IMG/VR virus record: IMGVR_UViG_3300008516_000090
Span: 1-24,201 of that record
Source: a virus
DNA length: 24,201 bases
Reading direction: 5' to 3' (one strand)
Positions 5,042 through 19,478 of the stretch are shown one piece after another. The notes under the pieces were generated by a model. The model was given only the letters and a program-made list of their open reading frames with translations. It did no database searches and was not told the DNA's origin. The first letter of the stretch is position 1; every line of letters begins with the position of its first letter. The translations under genes and the position numbers were made by a program.

Positions 5042-6013
5042 ATGGCTCTTCCAATTTTAACAAAAAAACTTGACGATTTACATTCGTCTACGTGGGAGAG
5101 AGTGAAAACTGATGTAGCTGATAACATCTTTGACGCAAATACTATTCTCAAAATAATGAAGGCAAGGGGTAAATTTGTAGAATACAATGGTGGAACTGAT
5201 ATTATGCAACCGCTGGAATATGGAGAGAATGAGACTGTTGATTGGATAGGTCGTGGTTCTAAAATAAGTATCGAAACTGGTGAGATAATCACAATGGCTA
5301 AATACCAATGGAAATATTTGGCTGGTTCTGTTGTCAGAATATTTACCGATGAAGATATGAATACTGGTGAACCTGCGATATTCAACTACACAGAAAAGAA
5401 TATAGGTAATCTTGAGAAAAGTATGAAGAAAAAAATCAATGCAGCATTAATGCTTGATGGCTCGCAACACGCTTTAGCTATGTCTGGAATTAAGAAATAT
5501 GTAGTAGAAGACCCAAGTGCTGCAACAACAGTCGGCGGAATTGACCCTTCTACTGAACCATGGTGGAGAAATCAGCAAATGACTATGTCTGGAGATGACC
5601 ATACTACATACTTGATTGATGATATGAGAACTATGTGGGATAGGTGTTCAGATGATGATGAAGGTGAAAATCCACAATTAATTTTAACTACCAAGGGAAT
5701 TAAAAGGTGGTATGAAGATGAAGCCTTAGATAGTCATTACTACACACAATCTAATGAGCTGGCTGATTTAGGTATTAAGGGTTGTGCATTTAAGGGTGCA
5801 CCAATAGTGGGAACAAACAGGTGCACTACTGCATGGATGTTTTTCCTCAATCTTAATTTCTTTGAAATAGCTTACACAGCATCAAAATACTTTGAAATGA
5901 CTGATTGGAAAACTGCTCAAGATAATTTAGAGAGAGTTGCTCAAATCGTAGCAAAGTTGCAGATGATTTGTAGCAATAGAGAAAAACAAGGATTGATTAC
6001 TGATATAGATTAA
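5042..6013 (+). CDS. Major capsid protein (HK97-fold type)
   Basis: 323 residues; builds the icosahedral head shell. Features shared with a widespread phage major capsid family are ARGKFVEYNGG (41-51, the loop entering the E-loop region), MAKYQWKYLAGSV (85-97) and TVGGIDPSTEPWWRNQ (163-178), the last being a hallmark of this family in my recollection. No N-terminal protease or long delta domain is present, in line with a separate scaffold gene upstream. SD AGGATGTG precedes the ATG. The gene ends inside the outer arm of a two-tier hairpin (6011-6049) that separates it from the next gene. Confidence 0.92.
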   Translation: MALPILTKKLDDLHSSTWERVKTDVADNIFDANTILKIMKARGKFVEYNGGTDIMQPLEYGENETVDWIGRGSKISIETGEIITMAKYQWKYLAGSVVRIFTDEDMNTGEPAIFNYTEKNIGNLEKSMKKKINAALMLDGSQHALAMSGIKKYVVEDPSAATTVGGIDPSTEPWWRNQQMTMSGDDHTTYLIDDMRTMWDRCSDDDEGENPQLILTTKGIKRWYEDEALDSHYYTQSNELADLGIKGCAFKGAPIVGTNRCTTAWMFFLNLNFFEIAYTASKYFEMTDWKTAQDNLERVAQIVAKLQMICSNREKQGLITDID

Positions 6014-9584: not shown

Positions 9585-9845
9585 GTGAAAATTTTAGCGA
9601 AGTATATGTCAGCTACTGGACAAGTACATAATGGTAAGTGTTACTATATTGGTATGACAACCACACATGGTGCTGAACGAAAAGTGTATAACATAGAAGC
9701 AAGTGGAAGTGTTGCTGATGGAAATATGGTTGGGTGGTGTGATAATGATGGCAATAACCAACAAATACTTCCCAAGCCTGGCATAGAGTGTACTAACGGA
9801 TTGTATTGTAATGGTGATGGCGTTTTAGTTTTCTATGCTCTATAA
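9585..9845 (+). CDS. Small beta-sandwich-like phage protein
   Basis: 86 residues from a GTG start. The sequence is Gly/Asn-rich and probably beta; it ends with GIECTNGLYCNGDGVLVFYAL. The ending parallels that of the 94-residue protein at 1571-1855 (GIYAEVEEGAEYMVLYDK), which suggests two related small virion proteins, although overall identity is low. Four Cys residues are present but not in a clear zinc-binding arrangement. SD is weak (AAAGGA or GGTGA in 9567-9578). A good terminator follows it. Confidence 0.75.
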   Translation: MKILAKYMSATGQVHNGKCYYIGMTTTHGAERKVYNIEASGSVADGNMVGWCDNDGNNQQILPKPGIECTNGLYCNGDGVLVFYAL

Positions 9846-9859
9846 GTATAACATAATAG

Positions 9860-9886
9860 GGGGGGATAGAAATATCTCCCCTTTTT
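9860..9886 (+). terminator. Intrinsic (rho-independent) terminator
   Basis: GGGGGGATA (9860-9868) pairs with TATCTCCCC (9873-9881), nine pairs with one G-U, capped by a GAAA tetraloop and followed directly by TTTTT (9882-9886). This is the clearest terminator in the window. It separates the head/HNH block from the adaptor gene, whose SD (AAGGTGAT) starts just after it, so downstream expression needs read-through, antitermination or another promoter. Confidence 0.8.
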
Positions 9887-9901
9887 AAGAAGGTGATATA
9901 A

Positions 9902-10870
9902 ATGGCACTTGATACAGCACTTACAAAGGGTGCTATGATAAATGTAATTCAAAATGATATTATTGATAGAACCGATAAATCTTTATTGGTGGGTTATGCT
10001 TTAAATTGGGCTCTTGAAGCAATAGATAAAACTGCTGCTGCAAGGGGCTTTGCTTTTTCTGATTTAAATATGGAAGAAATAACTACTACAACTATATCTG
10101 ATACATTTGAAACAACAGATGTAACTGTAGGAAGTGATACTATAGAAACTGATATAGATATACCTACTGGCACTAAAATAGTATTTACTGCTGGTGATGA
10201 AGATGATGATGCTGTTCCTACTGGGCTTACTGCTGGCACTGAATATTGGTGTATAAGAACAGATGAAGATACTATTCAGGTAGCTGAAACATATTTAGAA
10301 GCGTGGCAGGGCACTAATATGACTATAACTGCTGAAGGTGCGGGTATAAGCACTATAACTGCTTACAGGGAAAGATTGGCTAAACCTGATTTATGTAGAT
10401 ATATTTATGATATTAGACTAATCGATGGTGCTATGAGTAGAAAATTAATAGCAATGCCTCCAAGAGTAATGGATTTATATAATCCTTTTGGTCAACAATT
10501 AAGTGTTGGAAGACCTACTCATTATATAGAGTGGAAAGATTATATACAATTATCAAAAATCCCCGATGCAACTTATGTTATTAAAATTAGATATTATAAA
10601 TGGCAAACTCATTTTGCTGAAACTACTTCATATGCAGAAGTAGACCACATAGATGATATTATCATTAAATTTGCTGCTGCTCACGTATGGGAGATGTTAG
10701 GTGAACCTGAACAGGCAAATATGATGAGAAATGCTGCCGAAGTAGCTTTGGCTAAATGTGGTAAATTAGAAAAAATGAAACCAGATTTAGTGCTTAAGCC
10801 GTCAATGGGAACAATAGCACGTGCTGATAGTGATACGCAAGATGACCCATGGGTTCATAGTCAGAGGTGA
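9902..10870 (+). CDS. Head-tail adaptor protein with inserted beta domain
   Basis: 322 residues. N-terminal helices (residues 1-55) and a C-terminal helical segment around FAAAHVWEMLGEPEQANMMR frame a beta core with YIYDIRLIDGAMSRKL, MPPRVMDLYNPFG and GRPTHYIEW, a pattern I associate with phage adaptor proteins that bind under the portal (P22 gp4/T7 gp11 type in role). Residues about 72-155 look like an insertion: a compact beta domain with VPTGLTAGTEYWCIRTDEDT and TITAEGAGIST, a type found in many phage surface proteins. The C-terminal 30 residues are probably flexible. Position after the head genes and before the tail proteins fits a connector. Confidence 0.75.
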   Translation: MALDTALTKGAMINVIQNDIIDRTDKSLLVGYALNWALEAIDKTAAARGFAFSDLNMEEITTTTISDTFETTDVTVGSDTIETDIDIPTGTKIVFTAGDEDDDAVPTGLTAGTEYWCIRTDEDTIQVAETYLEAWQGTNMTITAEGAGISTITAYRERLAKPDLCRYIYDIRLIDGAMSRKLIAMPPRVMDLYNPFGQQLSVGRPTHYIEWKDYIQLSKIPDATYVIKIRYYKWQTHFAETTSYAEVDHIDDIIIKFAAAHVWEMLGEPEQANMMRNAAEVALAKCGKLEKMKPDLVLKPSMGTIARADSDTQDDPWVHSQR

Positions 10871-11655: not shown

Positions 11656-14600
11656 GTGGCGACTTTAACTACAAATATTAGTTTAACAAAACACGTTATA
11701 GAGGATATAACAAAAATACGTGAAGATATAAATGCTAATATGAACATCATTGATGGCAGATTTTCTGCTACTTATATGGCTGTTCAAGCTAAAAATGCTG
11801 TAACTATTACAGGCGGTTCTATAACTGGCATAACTGATTTAGCTGTAGCTGATGGCGGAACAGGTGTATCTACCTTAACTGATGGTGGTGTATTGCTTGG
11901 TAGTGGAACGGGTGCAATTACTGCTATGGCTGTATTAACTGACGGTCAAATGATAGTGGGTAATGGCACTACTGACCCTGTAGCTGAAAGTGGTGCTACG
12001 TTAAGAACTTCTATTGGTGTTGCCATAGGAAGTAATGTCCAGGCGTATGACGCTGCCCTTACAAGCATATCTGGACTTGTTTATGCTTCTGCATCATTTA
12101 TAAAATTCAGTGCTAATGATACTTATGTCGTTAGAACAATAGCAGAAACTAAAACTGATTTATCACTTAATGCGGTAGAGAATACTGCACTATCTACTTG
12201 GGCTGGAACTACAAATATAACCACGCTTGGAACAATAGCCACAGGCACTTGGAATGCTACTATTATTGGAACAGCTAAAGGTGGAACAGGTGTAGCAAAT
12301 GATGCAAATAATACCATTACATTTACAGGCAATTATACTCTTGGTGTAACTTTAACTGCTAATACTGCTGTTACCCTGCCTACAAGTGGTACTTTATATG
12401 GAACAAAAACAGATTCAATTACTTCTGCACAACTTGCTACTTCCATGACTAATGAAACAGGTTCAGGCGTATTGGTATTCGGAACATCACCTACTTTTAC
12501 TACATCTGCAACTATAGCAAATATTGTTATCCCTACCATATATACAGATGAAACAGAGCCAACTGGCTTTACAGATAAAACAGCAACTTTAAGTTTTGTA
12601 CCTGGTGCTTCAGGCATAACAAGAGAATTTACCATAACGGGAACTCATTATATTTATATTAACGGTGTTAAGACTACAAAGACAACAGATACAAAAGCTA
12701 TTGCAGATACAACTGGACTGCACTGGATTTATTATAATGCTTCTGGTGTACTGTCAGAATCTACAGACCATCCTGGATTTAGCTTGCCTTTAGTAGCAAC
12801 TCTCTATTGGAATACAACGACAGATGCTTATTTACTTGGTGAAGAAAGACATGGTATAGGTATGAGTGGAGAGACTCATGCATTATTGCACAACACAGTC
12901 GGAACAAGATATGAAAGTGGATTAACTCTAACTGCTGATGATACAACTTTTACGGTTACATTAGGAACAATTTATGATGAAGATATTGCTTTAGATATTA
13001 CCGAACAGACGACTTGTAATATACTTTATAAAAACGGTACTGCAAATTTTGAGTGGGATGCTGCACAAACGACATTATATAAGAAAAATGCTAATTTAAA
13101 ATATAATAATGTAAATGATTTGGCTGATGTGGGTTCTAATGCTTATGTTGCTTACTGGGTATTTGCCACCAATGACACAACTACACCAATAGTTTCGTTG
13201 ATGGGGCAGAGAACTGATACCAATATAGCCAATGCAAGAATAAATAATAAATATGAAAGTCTGACACTTGGAACATTGCCGTTTGAAGAGATGAAATTAT
13301 TATATAGGGTTATCTTTAGGAATGATGCAGACCCATACGAAGAAGTACAGGATTTAAGAACTGTATCAAATTTACCTGCTGGCACTTATTTGGCTACACA
13401 ACACAATGCCTTGACTGGATTAACTTGGGCTTCCTCTGGACATAATGGTTTATTGGATTTAGACAATAGATTAACTGCTGGTACACTTACCTCACCTATT
13501 GATATAAGTACAAATTCTTATGGTGTACAATGGTATTATTCTGGTAATAATGAAGATGTTACTGCATTGCGAAGTAGGGGAATATTAGCAACAACCGACG
13601 CTTCTAATAAAACTGCACAAGGTGCATTATTGCAGGCAAGCAATTCAGATGGCATAGATGCTCTATGTTTAAATGGTGCACTAATTGAAGCAATAGGTAA
13701 ATCTGATAGTACCGCTTCTACTATTGGCACAATGAGAGCTTTAATAGTTAATTCGGAATGGAACGCTAAAGACACTATAACCAATTTAAAAACACTTCAT
13801 GTCAGAACTCATACTCGTGATAGTGCAACAGAAGGATATATAAGCGGAACAGGTTATTTAGTTTATCTTGAAAATGAAGCAGTCGGTGGTAATGGACAGC
13901 AACTTGACGCAGGTATTTATCTGAAAGCAACCAATGTGTCTACACCTTATGCTTTTAATTATGGTATAGATTTAAGCGGTGCTGCTGCTGAAATAGCAAC
14001 CGCTGATATTAGATTACAAAATGGTGAAATTATAGAGAACAAAACAGATGGGAAGATAACATTTACTGGAGAACTTACAGGTGACGGTGGAGGTTTAACC
14101 AATCTTCCTGCTGGCTATACCAATCTAACATCATTTGTAGAGCAAACTGCTTGGCGAGTATTTTATTCTAATACTGCTGGTGATGTAACTGAACTTGGTT
14201 TTGGTGATAGTGGAACATATTTAGGTTCTAATGGAGCTACTTCTGCACCAACTTGGTCTGTACCTGCTGGTGCTGGTGATGTTGTAAAAGTAGACACTCC
14301 TGAAGATAATCAAGTGGGTGTATGGACAGGTAATGGAACAATCGAAGGAACTGCTGGACTTACTTATGATGGCTCTAATCTGCTGCTATCAGGTGATATT
14401 GGTAAAACGGATGGGAAGATAACAAAAGGTTGGTTTACAGATTTAGCGGTAACCAATGCTATTGCAGCTTCAATTACTGGACAAGCTGCTACGGTTGCAA
14501 CCATAACAGGTTTAGCACCTGATACAGCTACTACAGCATCAGCACAAACATCAATAGTTTCCATATTAAACGCTGGATTATATATAGGTAGAGATGTAGA

Positions 14601-15027
14601 TAATACAATAAGTTTTGCAACTGATGACCACATAATATTTAAAACTGCTGGAAACGCAACTCCCCCATTAATTGGGGTTACTGGCGAACTTGATATGAAT
14701 AATAATTCTGTTGGTTTTACAATACAGACACTCACAGGTGATGGGACTGATGATATTGACTGGCGGTTAGGTAATTATATGTCGTTTACTCATGGAGCAC
14801 AAGCAACAGAGGAATTTACCTTCACAGCACCCTCAAATCCATGTGGTTTAACATTACAGGTTAAACAGGATGGGACAGGTGGAAGGGATATAACTTTTCC
14901 TGCATCTGTTAAATGGCTAATGACAGAACCTACTTGGACTGATGGTGGAGTAGGCAAAACAATTATAATGAGTATGAGATACGATGGCACTTATTACTGG
15001 TCTCAAGCTACATCTTGGGAAGCATAA
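11656..15027 (+). CDS. Large tail fibre protein
   Basis: 1123 residues from a GTG start directly after the HNH stop. The N-terminus MATLTTNISLTKHVIEDITK is a short helical part, likely the particle-binding end. It is followed by fibre repeats DGGTGVSTLTDGGVLLGSG (67-85), an AKGGTGVAND repeat and TNETGSGVLVFGTSPTFTTS, a very common tail-fibre motif. The central region is beta-rich, and the C-terminus has ITFPASVKWL and MRYDGTYYWSQATSWEA, endings typical of adhesin tips. KTDGKIT occurs twice (796 and 917) from a near-identical DNA repeat. Expected role: host receptor binding. No chaperone or peptidase domain is recognised. Confidence 0.88.
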   Translation: MATLTTNISLTKHVIEDITKIREDINANMNIIDGRFSATYMAVQAKNAVTITGGSITGITDLAVADGGTGVSTLTDGGVLLGSGTGAITAMAVLTDGQMIVGNGTTDPVAESGATLRTSIGVAIGSNVQAYDAALTSISGLVYASASFIKFSANDTYVVRTIAETKTDLSLNAVENTALSTWAGTTNITTLGTIATGTWNATIIGTAKGGTGVANDANNTITFTGNYTLGVTLTANTAVTLPTSGTLYGTKTDSITSAQLATSMTNETGSGVLVFGTSPTFTTSATIANIVIPTIYTDETEPTGFTDKTATLSFVPGASGITREFTITGTHYIYINGVKTTKTTDTKAIADTTGLHWIYYNASGVLSESTDHPGFSLPLVATLYWNTTTDAYLLGEERHGIGMSGETHALLHNTVGTRYESGLTLTADDTTFTVTLGTIYDEDIALDITEQTTCNILYKNGTANFEWDAAQTTLYKKNANLKYNNVNDLADVGSNAYVAYWVFATNDTTTPIVSLMGQRTDTNIANARINNKYESLTLGTLPFEEMKLLYRVIFRNDADPYEEVQDLRTVSNLPAGTYLATQHNALTGLTWASSGHNGLLDLDNRLTAGTLTSPIDISTNSYGVQWYYSGNNEDVTALRSRGILATTDASNKTAQGALLQASNSDGIDALCLNGALIEAIGKSDSTASTIGTMRALIVNSEWNAKDTITNLKTLHVRTHTRDSATEGYISGTGYLVYLENEAVGGNGQQLDAGIYLKATNVSTPYAFNYGIDLSGAAAEIATADIRLQNGEIIENKTDGKITFTGELTGDGGGLTNLPAGYTNLTSFVEQTAWRVFYSNTAGDVTELGFGDSGTYLGSNGATSAPTWSVPAGAGDVVKVDTPEDNQVGVWTGNGTIEGTAGLTYDGSNLLLSGDIGKTDGKITKGWFTDLAVTNAIAASITGQAATVATITGLAPDTATTASAQTSIVSILNAGLYIGRDVDNTISFATDDHIIFKTAGNATPPLIGVTGELDMNNNSVGFTIQTLTGDGTDDIDWRLGNYMSFTHGAQATEEFTFTAPSNPCGLTLQVKQDGTGGRDITFPASVKWLMTEPTWTDGGVGKTIIMSMRYDGTYYWSQATSWEA
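14041..14061 (+). repeat. 21-bp direct repeat, copy 1 (tail fibre)
   Basis: Copy 1 of a 21-bp direct repeat that matches 14404-14424 with one mismatch (position 6). Both copies are in frame and encode KTDGKIT, 363 bp apart. They may mark duplicated fibre modules or serve as a recombination point. Confidence 0.75.
14404..14424 (+). repeat. 21-bp direct repeat, copy 2 (tail fibre)
   Basis: Copy 2 of the repeat at 14041-14061, with 20 of 21 bases matching and the same encoded heptapeptide. It is at residue 917 of the fibre. Confidence 0.75.
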
Positions 15028-15039
15028 AGGAGAAAAATT

Positions 15040-15540
15040 ATGGCAGTTATTGATATCGGAAGTGCGGCTATCGATAGGGCTACCAATACATCCAGTAACC
15101 GTACTTATATAAATAAGGGAATTACTGCTACTGCATCGGGTACGATTACATCAATAGAAGTATGGGCTGAGGAGAGTATGACGAACGCTGAAGTTGCTAC
15201 TTTTTATCGTCCAGACTCCAGTGGTTTTCCTGATAATTTTACCACTCGTGATTATGAAACAATAGGCAATGTGACTGCTGGTTCTAAACAAACTTTTGAG
15301 GTCAACCTTGATGTAATAGAGGGTGATTTTATTGGAATAGGTTTCCCGTCGGGTACAATAGAATACGATGTCGTGGGAGGAGCAGGAACTTGGGTATATG
15401 CAAGTGGTAGCGGTGGCATCCCCTGCGACAATAAAACATACAATTTTAGTGCCGATAGAGCAATAAGCCTTTACGGAACGGGAGTAACCGAAGAAGAAGA
15501 AGAAGAAGCTAATGCAATATTTTTTGGGGCTAATTTTTAA
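15040..15540 (+). CDS. Beta-sandwich phage virion protein
   Basis: 166 residues. It opens MAVIDIGSAAIDRATNTSS, continues with TYINKGITATASGTITSIEV and GSKQTFEVNLDVIEGDFIGI, and ends with a strand RAISLYGTGVT, an acidic run of six Glu and ANAIFFGANF. This 'DIGxxAIDRAT ... GTITSVEVW ... VxAGDxIGIxF ... GDAISLYGTG' pattern is one I recall from many phage and metagenomic proteins near tail fibres, where it looks like a carbohydrate-binding-type jelly roll. The function is not known. The poly-Glu is coded by a (GAA)6 tract. SD AAAGGAG at 15026-15032. Confidence 0.78.
   Translation: MAVIDIGSAAIDRATNTSSNRTYINKGITATASGTITSIEVWAEESMTNAEVATFYRPDSSGFPDNFTTRDYETIGNVTAGSKQTFEVNLDVIEGDFIGIGFPSGTIEYDVVGGAGTWVYASGSGGIPCDNKTYNFSADRAISLYGTGVTEEEEEEANAIFFGANF
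15490..15507 (+). repeat. (GAA)6 trinucleotide tract
   Basis: Six perfect GAA codons encoding Glu near the C-terminus of the beta-sandwich protein. Because the unit is three bases, length change by slippage would alter the acidic linker without a frameshift. Confidence 0.9.
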
Positions 15541-15549
15541 GGAGATATT

Positions 15550-16035
15550 ATGTGCATATTTAAGAATAAATGGCGACCCTTTATACCAACTACCGAGTAT
15601 TTATCGGCAGTTAAAGACCTGACTACTGTAGATAAACTATATCAATTTATACAGCAATTTAAACGCAAGGAAGATGTAAAAGATTACTGGCAAGACCCCG
15701 AAGAGACGCTTATATTATTGACTTACGATTGCGATGATAGTATGCGATTCTGTGTAGATGTTCTAAAACGAGTAATGGGAATTGATGCTAAAGGTGTAAT
15801 TAGTAGTGGATATAATAAGGCACGCTGGGGTAATAAAAAACATTGTCACGCAATTACAGTATTTCCTTACAATGGTAAGTTAGCTTTGTTTAGTAATAGG
15901 GAATTAAAGACAGATTATAACAGTCATATTGAGGCGTGCAAATATACTTTTCCAGATGGGCTAAAAAGTATGACTATAAGAGATTGGCAAGGTAAGATTT
16001 TAAGCAGAAAATATAAACTGATTGGAGTGTTTTGA
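15550..16035 (+). CDS. Transglutaminase/papain-like fold protein, possible lysis enzyme
   Basis: 161 residues. The segment DYWQDPEETLILLTYDCDDS resembles the region before the catalytic Cys in phage transglutaminase-like cysteine proteins (W-x-P-E-T-L ... DCxD), giving C61. H100 follows in KKHCHAITVFPY, and N116 in ALFSNREL could be the third residue of a Cys-His-Asn triad of papain type. Cys61 and His100 are separated by the usual helix (RFCVDVLKRVMG) and beta strands. It is directly upstream of two holin-like genes, so a peptidoglycan or protein-cleaving role in lysis is plausible, but a maturation or virion role is equally possible. SD AAGGAGAT. No signal peptide is seen. Confidence 0.65.
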   Translation: MCIFKNKWRPFIPTTEYLSAVKDLTTVDKLYQFIQQFKRKEDVKDYWQDPEETLILLTYDCDDSMRFCVDVLKRVMGIDAKGVISSGYNKARWGNKKHCHAITVFPYNGKLALFSNRELKTDYNSHIEACKYTFPDGLKSMTIRDWQGKILSRKYKLIGVF

Positions 16036-16036
16036 T

Positions 16037-16243
16037 ATGCCAACAAACAAAGAAAGGCTTGCCTCAATAGAAACGAGCATTAAACATATTGATGAAAATA
16101 TAGAAAAGATTGCAACTAATAATGTTAATCAATGGAAAAGCATAAATAAAAATGGTAAAGATATTGCCAATATAAAAGGAATAGGTACAGTCATTGCTCT
16201 TGTTTTCACTGCCGTTTGTGGTTATCTGGGTATCAAACAATGA
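16037..16243 (+). CDS. XhlA-like membrane protein (holin-associated)
   Basis: 68 residues. The start at 16037 has a GGAGTG SD (16024-16029); an in-frame TTG at 16022 is unlikely. A short helical head MPTNKERLASIETSIKHIDENIEK is amphipathic and coiled-coil-like, followed by NGKDIANIKG and one C-terminal membrane segment (about 49-65, GIGTVIALVFTAVCGYLGI). This head-helix-plus-single-TM layout fits the haemolysin XhlA family, which acts with a holin in phage lysis. The stop overlaps the next ATG (ATGA), which suggests coupled translation with the two-TM protein. Confidence 0.75.
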   Translation: MPTNKERLASIETSIKHIDENIEKIATNNVNQWKSINKNGKDIANIKGIGTVIALVFTAVCGYLGIKQ

Positions 16244-16458
16244 AGAAATTTCAGAAGATATTTATTAGAAGAGCTATCGTTTTTATATTAATACCGATAG
16301 TTCTTGCAATAGATATTGATAGTTACTTATTATATAGAATAGGATTACTTGAGTATAGCGTTGGGCTCGTAGGCTTTTTGGGTATTATAAATGGATTATT
16401 AACTACTGTTATAGCTTTTTATTTTAAAGGGCGTAGAGAGGACATAGAGGCAGATTAG
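16240..16458 (+). CDS. Two-TM holin-like membrane protein
   Basis: 72 residues from the ATG at 16240; the frame is open upstream to 16216, but the overlap ATGA and lack of another SD favour 16240. A basic N-terminus (MKKFQKIFIRR) precedes TM1 (about 11-31, rich in Ile/Val/Leu) and TM2 (about 46-66, VGFLGIINGLLTTVIAFYF), with a basic/acidic tail KGRREDIEAD. Size, two TM segments and coupling to an XhlA-like gene fit a holin of the small class, which would form membrane holes at lysis. It is not recognised as a specific holin family. A promoter begins one base after its stop codon. Confidence 0.72.
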   Translation: MKKFQKIFIRRAIVFILIPIVLAIDIDSYLLYRIGLLEYSVGLVGFLGIINGLLTTVIAFYFKGRREDIEAD

Positions 16459-16494
16459 TTGACATTTCATATAGAATATGATAGAATATAGCAG
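16459..16494 (+). promoter_or_regulatory. Strong sigma70-type extended -10 promoter
   Basis: A perfect -35 TTGACA (16459-16464), a 17-bp spacer and a -10 TAGAAT (16482-16487, 5 of 6) preceded by TGA, i.e. an extended -10. Transcription would start near 16494. The spacer and -10 contain a tandem 10-bp repeat (16471-16480 and 16481-16490, differing in the last base) that may offer a second -10 or an operator. It directly precedes the gene at 16515, with SD AAGGGGG at 16500-16507. Confidence 0.75.
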
Positions 16495-16514
16495 TTTTAT
16501 AAGGGGGAATATTT

Positions 16515-16922
16515 ATGCAATTATTTTTTCCTGTTGTGTGTGGATTAATAGTTATTTATTTTTTATCTCGTATAGAAATAAGACCAAAAAAAGGGGAGTA
16601 TAAAGTAGAACATTTGCAAAATAGACCAGTGTTAATAGAGATAAATCCTAAGGGGACAAAAAGAGACCCTGTTAGGTGCAGGTTAAATTCAATAATGGCT
16701 TTTGCAGTCATAGGATTTGCTGATTATAAAAAAGAAAAGGTAGTAGAATTAAACGGCAGTAATATTAGATGGCATAATTATATGGGAAAATGGGATAAGA
16801 AATATGGTATTGATAATATGTATCATACTCCCAATAAAGCTGGATATCAAGATATATGGATTTCCTACAAGGATAAAAAAATAAATACAAGTTCTAAAGT
16901 AAAAATATTAGTGGAGGTGTAA
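16515..16922 (+). CDS. Membrane-anchored Ig-like protein, possible moron
   Basis: 135 residues. An N-terminal hydrophobic segment (about 1-18, MQLFFPVVCGLIVIYFLS) is followed by a basic stretch RIEIRPKKGEYK and a beta-rich domain. VVELNGSNIRWHNYMG and NKAGYQDIWISYKDKK have an Ig-like (Big-type) look: a strand with I-x-W, then a G-Y-x-x-I-W-I-x-Y strand, ending SKVKILVEV. By the positive-inside rule the charges would place the domain in the cytoplasm, while Ig domains are usually exported; topology is thus unclear. It has its own strong promoter, as lysogenically expressed accessory genes often do. Superinfection exclusion is a hypothesis, not a finding. Confidence 0.7.
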   Translation: MQLFFPVVCGLIVIYFLSRIEIRPKKGEYKVEHLQNRPVLIEINPKGTKRDPVRCRLNSIMAFAVIGFADYKKEKVVELNGSNIRWHNYMGKWDKKYGIDNMYHTPNKAGYQDIWISYKDKKINTSSKVKILVEV

Positions 16923-16923
16923 G

Positions 16924-17079
16924 ATGATTTGTTTTAGTATACTTATGATTATAATAGTAGTTATGTGTGTTACATTCTTTATATTTCACCCTAAAGATGT
17001 ATTGGGTTTTTGGGTGGTAAGTATAAAAAAAGTGTGTTCTGGAATATGGAAATTGATAAAGGGATTATTCAATAAATGA
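16924..17079 (+). CDS. 51-residue single-TM peptide
   Basis: Starts MICFSILMIIIVVMCVTFF, one strong TM segment (about 4-22), followed by FHPKDVLGF and a cationic amphipathic helix (VSIKKVCSGIWKLIKGLFNK). The SD GGAGGTG at 16913-16919 lies in the end of the preceding gene, one base separates the genes, and it shares the promoter at 16459. Size and charge fit a small holin, antiholin or membrane-active effector, but there is no family recognition. Confidence 0.68.
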   Translation: MICFSILMIIIVVMCVTFFIFHPKDVLGFWVVSIKKVCSGIWKLIKGLFNK

Positions 17080-17092
17080 AAGGGATTAAATA

Positions 17093-17740
17093 ATGTTTGA
17101 TGCAAAAGTTTATAAACATAAATGGTATTGTGATAATAAAGAAAGAATGAAAGAATTAAATAAAATATGGCATAAAGATAATCCTGAGAAAAATAAGGAA
17201 TACCAAAGGAAGAAACGGGAAAATAATCCAAATCGTGATAAAATATATTATCGAAAGAATGCAGAAAAAATAAAAATTTATAATCATCAATGGTATCTTG
17301 ACAATAAAGAAAAAGCAGATAGCAAAAAGTATAAATATGCTCAAGAACACAAAAAAGAACGTAATGAATATCTAAGAAATAAATACAAAACAGATTTAAA
17401 ATTTAATCTTAACATTAAGATACAAAAAATAATAGGGTCTTCATTAAAAGGTAATAAAAATGGTAGACATTGGGAAGATTTGGTTGGTTATAATTTAAAA
17501 GATTTGATTAAACATCTAAATAAGACAATGCCAAATGGATATTATTGGAATGATGTTTTAACTGCTAAATTACATATTGACCACATAATACCAATATCGG
17601 CTTTCAACTTTACTCAACCAAAGCATACGGATTTCAAGAGATGTTGGGCATTGAGTAATTTAAGGTTATTACCTGCAAAAGAAAATATAAGAAAAAGCAA
17701 TAAAATAACAAAGCCCTTTCAACCCGCATTAGCTATATAG
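17093..17740 (+). CDS. HNH homing endonuclease
   Basis: 215 residues. The N-terminal ~100 residues are very basic with repeated Y-x-x-x-W/K...NKE units (YKHKWYCDNKER, YNHQWYLDNKEK), probably DNA-binding repeats. A region WEDLVGYNLKDLIKHLNKTM leads to the HNH core HIDHIIPISAF (H161, D163, H164), CWALSNLRLLPA (N189) and ENIRKSNK (N198, K201-N203). This is the H-x-D-H ... N-x-R-x-L ... N-x-x-K-x-N class, common in free-standing phage nucleases; there is no Cys-x2-Cys pair. SD GAAAGGG at 17080-17087. It separates the promoter-driven small membrane genes from the coiled-coil protein and so may have entered recently. Confidence 0.9.
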   Translation: MFDAKVYKHKWYCDNKERMKELNKIWHKDNPEKNKEYQRKKRENNPNRDKIYYRKNAEKIKIYNHQWYLDNKEKADSKKYKYAQEHKKERNEYLRNKYKTDLKFNLNIKIQKIIGSSLKGNKNGRHWEDLVGYNLKDLIKHLNKTMPNGYYWNDVLTAKLHIDHIIPISAFNFTQPKHTDFKRCWALSNLRLLPAKENIRKSNKITKPFQPALAI

Positions 17741-17752
17741 AAAGGAGATAAA

Positions 17753-18514
17753 ATGAAATATATTAAAATTGCTTTAGTGATAATAATAATAGTCTTATTA
17801 TCATTTGCAGGCTTAAAAGGCTATAACTATTTCAGGCAATGGGAATCTGATAGGTTCAGTGAAATAAATATGCTTCGGACTAATCAAGACCTATTCTTGA
17901 AGAAAGTCAGCGACTTATCCGAAAGCATTACCAGAATAGTCAACGACACAATTAAGACTACAACTGAAGTCAAGCCTGACCACACTTACGAAAGTTTAAA
18001 AGATGAAGTAATTGAATTAAAGAAAGATGAAGAAGCAAACAAAGATGAGATAGCAGAATTAAGGGAAGAATTATCAGCACAAAGGAAAGCATTTTTAGCA
18101 AGTGACGATACTATTCTTATTAAGACTACAGATGATACATTATTGATATATCGTGATGAAGAAGGTACACTGCAACCTGCAAGTGATAATATAGAGAAAA
18201 TAATAGAGCATCGTGAATTGTCATCAGTTATCCCAATTCTTGCTGAAGAAAAAATCGAGATTAAAGAAACAAGCTATAATCTTAAAGCTGGTGGATATTA
18301 TAGCTTTGATAATACATATGGAGTTTGCATTAGCAAAGGAATATTCAGCATAAAAGATTATAGTATCAATGCAAGTTTATTATTAAGCGATTTTGAAGAT
18401 TTTAATTTTGCAGTTGGTGCAGATGTTGGGTATTTAGTTGGCGATAACTTGGAGATTGGCGTAGGATATAATACAAATAAAGAATATTATATAAAATTGC
18501 AATATACTTTTTAG
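17753..18514 (+). CDS. TM/coiled-coil protein with OMP-like C-terminus
   Basis: 253 residues. A basic N-terminus and TM (about 5-23, KIALVIIIIVLLSFAGLKGY) anchor the protein with its bulk outside the cytoplasm. A long helical coiled-coil-like part (about 75-115, KDEVIELKKDEEANKDEIAE) follows. From about 165 to the end, alternating hydrophobic/polar strands occur (YNLKAGGYYSFDNTYGV, NFAVGADVGYLVGDNLEIGV, EYYIKLQYTF), about six strands ending in C-terminal Phe, as in outer-membrane barrel proteins. An inner-membrane anchor joined to an outer-membrane-like end is the layout expected of a spanin-like protein that fuses the two membranes at lysis. A Gram-positive or fibrous role cannot be excluded. 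SD AAAGGAG at 17741-17747. Confidence 0.68.
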   Translation: MKYIKIALVIIIIVLLSFAGLKGYNYFRQWESDRFSEINMLRTNQDLFLKKVSDLSESITRIVNDTIKTTTEVKPDHTYESLKDEVIELKKDEEANKDEIAELREELSAQRKAFLASDDTILIKTTDDTLLIYRDEEGTLQPASDNIEKIIEHRELSSVIPILAEEKIEIKETSYNLKAGGYYSFDNTYGVCISKGIFSIKDYSINASLLLSDFEDFNFAVGADVGYLVGDNLEIGVGYNTNKEYYIKLQYTF

Positions 18515-18526
18515 TGAGGTGATTAA

Positions 18527-19309
18527 ATGATTAAGCGAGTGATTTTCTATCCTGATTTTCACCACCCACATATTAATAAACCTGCTGTAGATGCTGTGTT
18601 TCAATTTACTATATGGTTTAAACCCCACGCTGCTTGCATTTTAGGCGATGCAATGAATATGGATGCTGTTAATCATTGGAAAAGGGCAAGGGGTGCAAAG
18701 AAATATTTTGAAGGGAAAAGAATTAAAAAAGAATATGAAAATTTTGATATGGAAATTTTAACACCACTTGATAAGATACTACCCAAAGGTTGTGAAAAAA
18801 CATTTATGGGTGGTAATCATGAAGATTGGATTGATGGTGTTATAGAAAAACTTCCTGAATTTGAAGGAATGATTGAGGTTGAAACATCACTACGATTAGA
18901 AGAACGAGGTTGGGAATGGATACCATGGATTAAATATAATCCGAGGACTGATAGCTATACAAGGGGCATTAAGCAATATGGCAAGCTATTAGTTTTTCAT
19001 GGACAATATTATAACAAATATCATTCCGCAAAGACAGCCGATACATATAGTAAAAGCTGTGCTTATGCCCATACTCACGATATCCAATCATATACCAAGG
19101 TCACGGTAGATGACAGGGGTTTTCATACTGCACAAAGCATAGGGTGCTTATGCAACACCAGCCCTGAATTTCTAAAAGGGCGTATGAATAGGTGGGTCAA
19201 TGCTTTCGGTATTCTTTATGTTCGTGAAGATGGTATGTATAATTTGTATGTACCGATAATAATTAAAGGCAAATTTGTATTTGAAGGAAGAATATTTGAT
19301 GGTTCTTAA
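18527..19309 (+). CDS. Calcineurin-like metallophosphoesterase
   Basis: 260 residues; hydrolyses phosphoester bonds using two metal ions. Motifs in order: D10-x-H12 (YPDFHHPH), G40-D41 (LGDAMN), G96-N97-H98-E99 (GGNHED), H158 (VFHGQYY) and H182-x-H184 (AHTHDIQ, with Ala in place of the usual Gly of GHxH). All five metal-binding blocks are present, so the enzyme is likely active. Substrate is unknown; phage members act on proteins, DNA/RNA ends or nucleotides. It is encoded within the late region, between lysis-like and tail genes. Its C-terminus overlaps the following small gene by 11 nt. SD GAGGTGAT at 18515-18522. Confidence 0.88.
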   Translation: MIKRVIFYPDFHHPHINKPAVDAVFQFTIWFKPHAACILGDAMNMDAVNHWKRARGAKKYFEGKRIKKEYENFDMEILTPLDKILPKGCEKTFMGGNHEDWIDGVIEKLPEFEGMIEVETSLRLEERGWEWIPWIKYNPRTDSYTRGIKQYGKLLVFHGQYYNKYHSAKTADTYSKSCAYAHTHDIQSYTKVTVDDRGFHTAQSIGCLCNTSPEFLKGRMNRWVNAFGILYVREDGMYNLYVPIIIKGKFVFEGRIFDGS

Positions 19310-19478
19310 ACACATTAAAAGATTTGGAAGATGTTTTAATTGTAATAGATTACTCCCTTTAAAATATTTAGAACAAATAGAATTTTATAATAACCATATT
19401 ATAAATGGTGGATATCATCATAAATTATTATGTCAAAGCTGTAGAAAAAAAGCAGAAGAAGTATTTAATATAGTATAA
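19299..19478 (+). CDS. Small zinc-ribbon-like protein
   Basis: 59 residues from the ATG at 19299, which has a GAAGGAAG SD at 19283-19290; an in-frame TTG at 19275 is less likely. It overlaps the phosphoesterase end. C12/C15 (GRCFNCNR) and C49/C52 (LCQSCRKK) form a probable zinc-binding pair, with His residues (GGYHH) between. Size suggests a small regulatory or structural factor. It is not recognised as a known family. Confidence 0.72.
   Translation: MVLKHIKRFGRCFNCNRLLPLKYLEQIEFYNNHIINGGYHHKLLCQSCRKKAEEVFNIV

Follow-up and report, generated by a model that had tools for sequence, protein, structure and literature searches.

Extended -10 promoters of the consensus type combine a TTGACA -35 element, a 17-bp spacer, a TGn motif and a TATAAT-like -10 element. 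The published account of the late region of phage SPP1 describes XhlA-like and two-segment holin genes followed by small variable genes, which its authors term morons (PMC6316719). In that account PL1 is the one mapped strong late promoter, it has an atypical -35, and the authors report that they found no further late promoter like it (PMC6316719). Morons in late operons are usually expressed independently and differ between relatives at one slot, as described for the 'ant moron' of P22-like phages (PMC2629481) and for pid of P22 (PMC3573128).

Here we describe a promoter-like site behind the holin-like genes of an uncultivated phage. The stretch analysed, hereafter the window, is a 24,201-base IMG/VR record that begins at the terminase large subunit and continues with head and tail genes in one direction. 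The site occupies a 56-bp gap, 16459-16514, which also contains the next gene's Shine-Dalgarno. Judged from its sequence, it is very probably an ordinary working internal promoter of a known kind.

Genes around the 56-bp gap

The genes at 16037-16243 and 16240-16458 look like a two-part holin (Table 1). The product of the first also matched Pfam XhlA at E 0.0027, under the family cut-off, and has a homologue (53-58% identical) in the relatives L055 and L056, encoded immediately 5' of the second holin gene and endolysin. The second matched holins weakly (phrog_4237, E 0.018; P21 holin, E 0.019) and its homologue in L029 by BLASTP at E 4e-7.

Behind the gap, the 135-aa protein weakly resembles a 151-aa protein that L052 encodes at this position (27% over 56 aa, E 5e-5). 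Its predicted structure had a mean pLDDT of 46.5, and by tblastn none of seven candidate stretches in viral_contigs encoded a relative. GC content is 29% for its gene and 30-31% for the holin genes. The 51-aa protein is far more conserved, with 71-74% identity over matched residues in L029, L052, L053, L055 and L056. The HNH gene (17093-17740) and a related gene in L052 (2616-3389) share one site between the 51-aa and 253-aa genes, and HNH genes are missing from that site in L029, L053, L055 and L056; from this distribution, the junction is likely a homing site. The 253-aa protein is possibly spanin-like. Located 3' of the metallophosphoesterase gene, at 19305-19478, is a gene for a small Cys-rich protein with relatives in G003, and a Cys-rich 63-aa protein is also encoded beside the metallophosphoesterase gene of L051.

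No recognised endolysin was found in the window; a possible candidate is the 161-aa gene at 15550, which belongs to no named family. A Pfam scan of eight window proteins returned a single weak HNH match and nothing else, and Rfam and tRNA scans of the window gave no matches.

Table 1. Positions of the features discussed, in window coordinates unless a relative is named.
Feature	Position	Strand	Basis or remark
Holin-like gene A, 68 aa, C-terminal membrane segment, XhlA-like	16037..16243	+	phrog_689 holin, E 0.0016
Holin-like gene B, 72 aa, ATGA overlap with gene A, stop abuts -35	16240..16458	+	weak holin matches
Stop codon TAG of holin-like gene B	16456-16458	+	read directly
-35 element TTGACA, 6/6 consensus	16459-16464	+	first base after TAG stop
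17-bp spacer, 3' end is extended -10 TGA (16479-16481)	16465-16481	+	sequence and promoter scan
Two copies of ATAGAATAT at 10-bp step, over spacer and -10	16471..16489	+	sequence
-10 element TAGAAT, 5/6 consensus	16482-16487	+	sequence and promoter scan
Predicted transcription start, A16493 or G16494, leader 21-22 nt	16493..16494	+	from the -10 position
Shine-Dalgarno AAGGGGG, 7 nt 5' of ATG 16515	16501..16507	+	sequence
First gene past the gap, 135 aa, hydrophobic N-terminus, no named family	16515..16922	+	sequence
51-aa membrane protein (FFIFHPKDVLGFWVV), conserved in relatives' lysis cassette	16924..17079	+	sequence comparison
HNH endonuclease gene, mobile	17093..17740	+	sequence comparison
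253-aa protein, N-terminal membrane segment, coiled coil, barrel-like C-terminus	17753..18514	+	lysis-cassette neighbour in relatives
Metallophosphoesterase gene, next in same direction	18527..19309	+	phrog_221, E 5e-26
AACTTGATATCGAAAAA box	G003: L045 8433-8449	+	overlaps -35 of promoter-like site
AACTTGATATCGAAAAA box	G003: L046 13902-13918 = L034 3397-3413	+	overlaps -35 of promoter-like site
AACTTGATATCGAAAAA box	G003: L046 11297-11313	-	overlaps -35 of promoter-like site
AACTTGATATCGAAAAA box	G002: L043 19519-19535	-	overlaps -35 of promoter-like site

A near-consensus site in non-coding DNA

Direct reading confirmed the -35 element, 17-bp spacing, TGA and -10 element where an earlier note on this DNA had placed them, and likewise its statement that the promoter starts one base past a stop codon, with TAG ending at 16458 and TTGACA beginning at 16459. 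The site has the -35, the spacing (17 bp, within 16-18 bp), the TGn and the -10 of sigma70-type extended -10 promoters. Its -10 lies 28 nt from the start codon, and six non-coding sites in the first four relatives span 10-43 nt. Neighbouring intergenic gaps, from 15040 to 18527, measure at most 13 nt, compared to 56 nt here. No A/T-rich activating tract was evident upstream of the TTGACA at 16459, and a scan of 14000-19000 found no terminator-like site on the + strand.

In a promoter scan of positions 14000-19000, the site ranked first of 28 and was the sole 11/12 match. Since 25.8 promoter-like sites were expected in this interval, its weak matches are noise. The site was also the only one in the whole 24-kb window with a sigma70-type match of at least 11/12. 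When the whole window was dinucleotide-shuffled 200 times and both strands were scanned, sites of at least 11/12 arose 1.5 times per window, falling to 0.09 with TGn, 0.02 with TGn and 17-bp spacing, and 0.005 with a perfect TTGACA as well, all at thresholds set post hoc, after the site was known. The site lies wholly in non-coding DNA, which makes up 3.8% of the window according to the simple custom gene caller on which all coding and non-coding counts rest.

The tandem repeat over spacer and -10

Nine identical bases recur at a 10-bp step, 16471-16479 and 16481-16489. Such a repeat is somewhat uncommon by chance: among 2000 shuffles of the 56 bp, 25 contained a match run of at least 9 at steps of 5-20. 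The earlier note had suggested that it could be a second -10 or a repressor-binding site. The former was rejected, because the upstream TAGAAT (16472) is 7 bp away from the TTGACA and cannot serve it; this copy also lacks a TGn. The latter was not borne out either. No inverted repeat was found within 16400-16560, the one other copy of ATAGAATAT in the partial window (21284) is intragenic, and the palindromic or repeated site recurring at other phage promoters that characterizes repressor operators was not seen there. Removing one repeat copy would leave the TAGAAT 7 bp, not 17 bp, from the TTGACA.

The same junction in syntenic relatives

A search with a profile of the 51-aa protein led to this cassette in L052, L053, L055 and L056, and once more in the record of L029 (L038 and L054 belong to the L029 record and are not counted separately). 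These five syntenic relatives are mostly ~30-75% identical to the window phage in shared proteins. An M15 peptidase gene overlaps the second holin gene in L052, L053 and L056, and a GH108 gene does so in L055. In L029, a 111-aa gene begins 2 nt past the second holin gene, its product showing no significant similarity to the 135-aa protein (BLASTP E 0.66), and an M15 peptidase gene sits 5' of the terminase genes. The 'lysis region' label given by the earlier note was upheld by synteny: two holin-like genes lie here, and in four relatives out of the five an endolysin (M15 peptidase or GH108) comes next. Because an endolysin gene stands behind the holin in those four relatives, the 56-bp gap lies at the usual endolysin position. 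Gene order in L052 matches that of the window apart from the L052 endolysin, with a weakly similar protein filling the 135-aa slot; this slot holds another protein in L029, and the gene is absent in L053, L055 and L056.

No promoter-like site of at least 10/12 was present in the 100 nt past the holin stop in any of the five (L029, L052, L053, L055, L056), and the promoter element was also missing at the junction in L033, which has a different holin. The conservation of -35 and -10 that the earlier note had proposed to check among related phages was not found, as the elements are missing at the junction in all five, none of which is close. The exact pattern of promoter plus repeat occurred in no stretch of viral_contigs, and a near-identity search of 50,697 phage records gave no match to the window. 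The predicted promoter at 16459 is specific to this phage among those seen.

Promoter grammar across the phage group

We defined grammar sites as an exact TTGACA, a 16-18 bp spacer and a -10 of at least 5/6. A first set, made up of the window plus four records linked to it through shared genes (G001, G002, G003 and G005), contained nine such sites, compared to 3.6 in whole-sequence shuffles, of which 2 of 200 reached nine. Seven of the nine were wholly non-coding (six of eight without the window), with non-coding DNA making up 9.1% of bases. Shuffling the non-coding intervals gave 0.2 expected versus seven seen, or 0.19 versus six without the window, and none of 1000 shuffles reached either count. 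All four grammar sites in a second set (G011-G014) were non-coding versus 0.12 expected (0 of 1000 shuffles), two of the four being one 60-bp element in two related records. Base-by-base scanning covered nine of the 15 G records, window included (G000, G001, G002, G003, G005, G011-G014); G004 and G006-G010 were searched with one pattern, which was present in one of the ten records given to that search. By these sequence counts, the 16459 site follows a promoter grammar that is in use across the related phage records. It is mainly because the relatives' grammar sites fall in non-coding DNA that we take the 16459 site as a promoter.

The shared element (G013 5808-5867, +; G014 31885-31944, -) is an identical 60 bp with TTGACA-16-TATAAT and TGn, and in each record 179 nt separate its -10 from the following open frame; it is a possible small RNA promoter. 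G014 also carries a gene (9703-10057) for a sigma-70 region 4-like regulator, which may be an activator of late genes; this gene has a TTGACA promoter-like site of its own.

Late-region parallels

In G003, a more distant relative, TTGATA-17-TATAAT lies 38 nt past the second holin gene; it was first scored as coding, an open frame with a TTG start spanning it. The 17-nt box AACTTGATATCGAAAAA is found at the -35 of this site and recurs at three more promoter-like sites. Two of the four are ahead of terminase-small-subunit-like genes (G003 and G002), one is in the lysis cassette and one is minus-strand. The box looks like a shared late promoter or operator, and because it recurs ahead of terminase-small-subunit-like genes, the G003 site suggests that a late promoter has an internal copy in the lysis region of G003. 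The 14-nt core of the box was not found in the window at up to 2 mismatches.

L034 and L033 have in common TTGAC(A/T)-17-TGC-TATC(A/T)T, a conserved extended -10 promoter-like site, ahead of a small HTH gene in the late interval. These HTH regulator genes (L034 4530-4780, L033 4471-4755) lie between the lysis genes and the metallophosphoesterase gene, and non-coding DNA containing terminator-like hairpins separates them from the latter.

Discussion

We consider it probable that the 56-bp gap is a complete small expression signal, a host-read internal promoter with a start near 16493/16494, at a site of presumed endolysin loss. Host RNA polymerase with its main sigma factor (sigma70/sigmaA-type) would read the extended -10 promoter at 16459-16487, and the short leader would retain the Shine-Dalgarno of the 135-aa gene. 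The transcript would cover the 135-aa, 51-aa, HNH and 253-aa genes, and probably the metallophosphoesterase gene, on top of read-through from the main late promoter. With no + strand terminator-like site up to 19000, transcripts would continue across the post-holin genes and past them. Since the gap is at the relatives' endolysin position, it most likely formed when the endolysin gene left or was replaced, a loss at 16459-16514 that is suggested by the neighbours, in a window without a recognised endolysin. The promoter would restore or raise expression of the genes behind the holins, with extra or earlier expression of post-holin genes as the likely effect. From the observed elements, position, statistics, group-wide grammar and synteny we infer activity, start site, timing and the endolysin-loss origin. 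Both the statistics and the relatives' promoter grammar favour the earlier note's proposal of a sigma70-type extended -10 promoter from which the next genes could be expressed independently of late read-through. Its further suggestion, expression in a lysogen, is unsupported by the six records searched for integrase and resolvase genes.

The same sequence could instead be an AT-rich intergenic scar of gene loss or recombination that resembles a promoter and is silent or irrelevant. We regard this as unlikely: the near-expected number of promoter-like sites in 14000-19000, the absence of the site from syntenic relatives and its post hoc choice by the earlier note are consistent with chance, but sites of such quality are rare in shuffled windows (0.02 per window), and this one is wholly non-coding, correctly oriented and spaced from its start codon like the relatives' promoters. 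Arrival of the 135-aa gene, perhaps with neighbours, as a moron cassette with its own promoter, expressed in a prophage or carrier state, would account for the predicted promoter-like site ahead of it, its small membrane-type product, its low GC and the variable post-holin slot, in which L029 has its dissimilar 111-aa protein. However, the holin genes are just as AT-rich, a weakly similar protein occupies the slot in L052, where the 51-aa and HNH genes again come next, and the terminator of its own that a moron would carry was not found on the + strand of 14000-19000. Tyrosine integrase and serine resolvase genes were each found in none of six records, all possible fragments, with a window that lacks the early region. 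This origin is highly unlikely in our view.

The repeat lends itself to two further readings. As an operator or an activator direct repeat, it would control the promoter; its two 9-base copies are one helical turn apart across the spacer and -10, and because AACTTGATATCGAAAAA overlaps a -35 at four promoter-like sites, found in two relatives, regulated promoters with such a layout may exist in the group. Set against this are the lack of an inverted repeat at the site, of a second non-coding repeat copy within the window and of the AACTTGATATCGAAAAA core in the window, as well as the expectation of a repeat of this kind in ~1% of shuffles, leaving the chance of a regulator site very slim. The promoter may also have been born in place, which we consider distinctly unlikely: after the endolysin gene left the slot, a 10-bp tandem duplication would have widened the spacing between a pre-existing TTGACA and the TAGAAT from 7 bp to 17 bp, creating the TGn simultaneously and turning a silent junction into a promoter that uncoupled the post-holin genes from the late transcript. 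If true, this would make the gene-loss scar, with its 10-bp duplication, a compact example of how a phage promoter is born.

Under the preferred reading, an internal promoter read by the host, near-consensus promoters may be readable from sequence with some confidence in this uncultivated phage group, and lysis-region genes may possess their own transcription. A terminase scan of genome_contigs for the host gave no match. The metallophosphoesterase profile found one chromosomal locus there, in a Parcubacteria MAG; this contig (L051 5817-6825) carries a phage-type metallophosphoesterase gene (70% identity) among chromosomal genes that we take to be polA-, ftsW- and murG-like, and is a weak host or gene-transfer lead.

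With sigma70/sigmaA extended -10 promoters of bacteria and phages, the site shares the TTGACA, the 17-bp spacer, the TGn, a -10 one base off TATAAT and a short leader with a Shine-Dalgarno. Compared to mapped promoters of this class, the start here is predicted, and so is recognition by the host's main sigma factor. The post-holin slot inside the late operon differs between relatives, as described at the 'ant moron' and pid slots (PMC2629481, PMC3573128). As reported for P22, pid has the reverse orientation and a terminator of its own (PMC3573128), whereas the 135-aa gene is in the same orientation as its neighbours and without a terminator; unlike P22-type morons, its neighbouring gene order is common to L052. 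As in the published description of SPP1, an XhlA-like gene and a second holin gene lie in the late region with small variable genes behind, but the window phage has a near-consensus site behind its holins, whereas SPP1 PL1 has an atypical -35 (PMC6316719).
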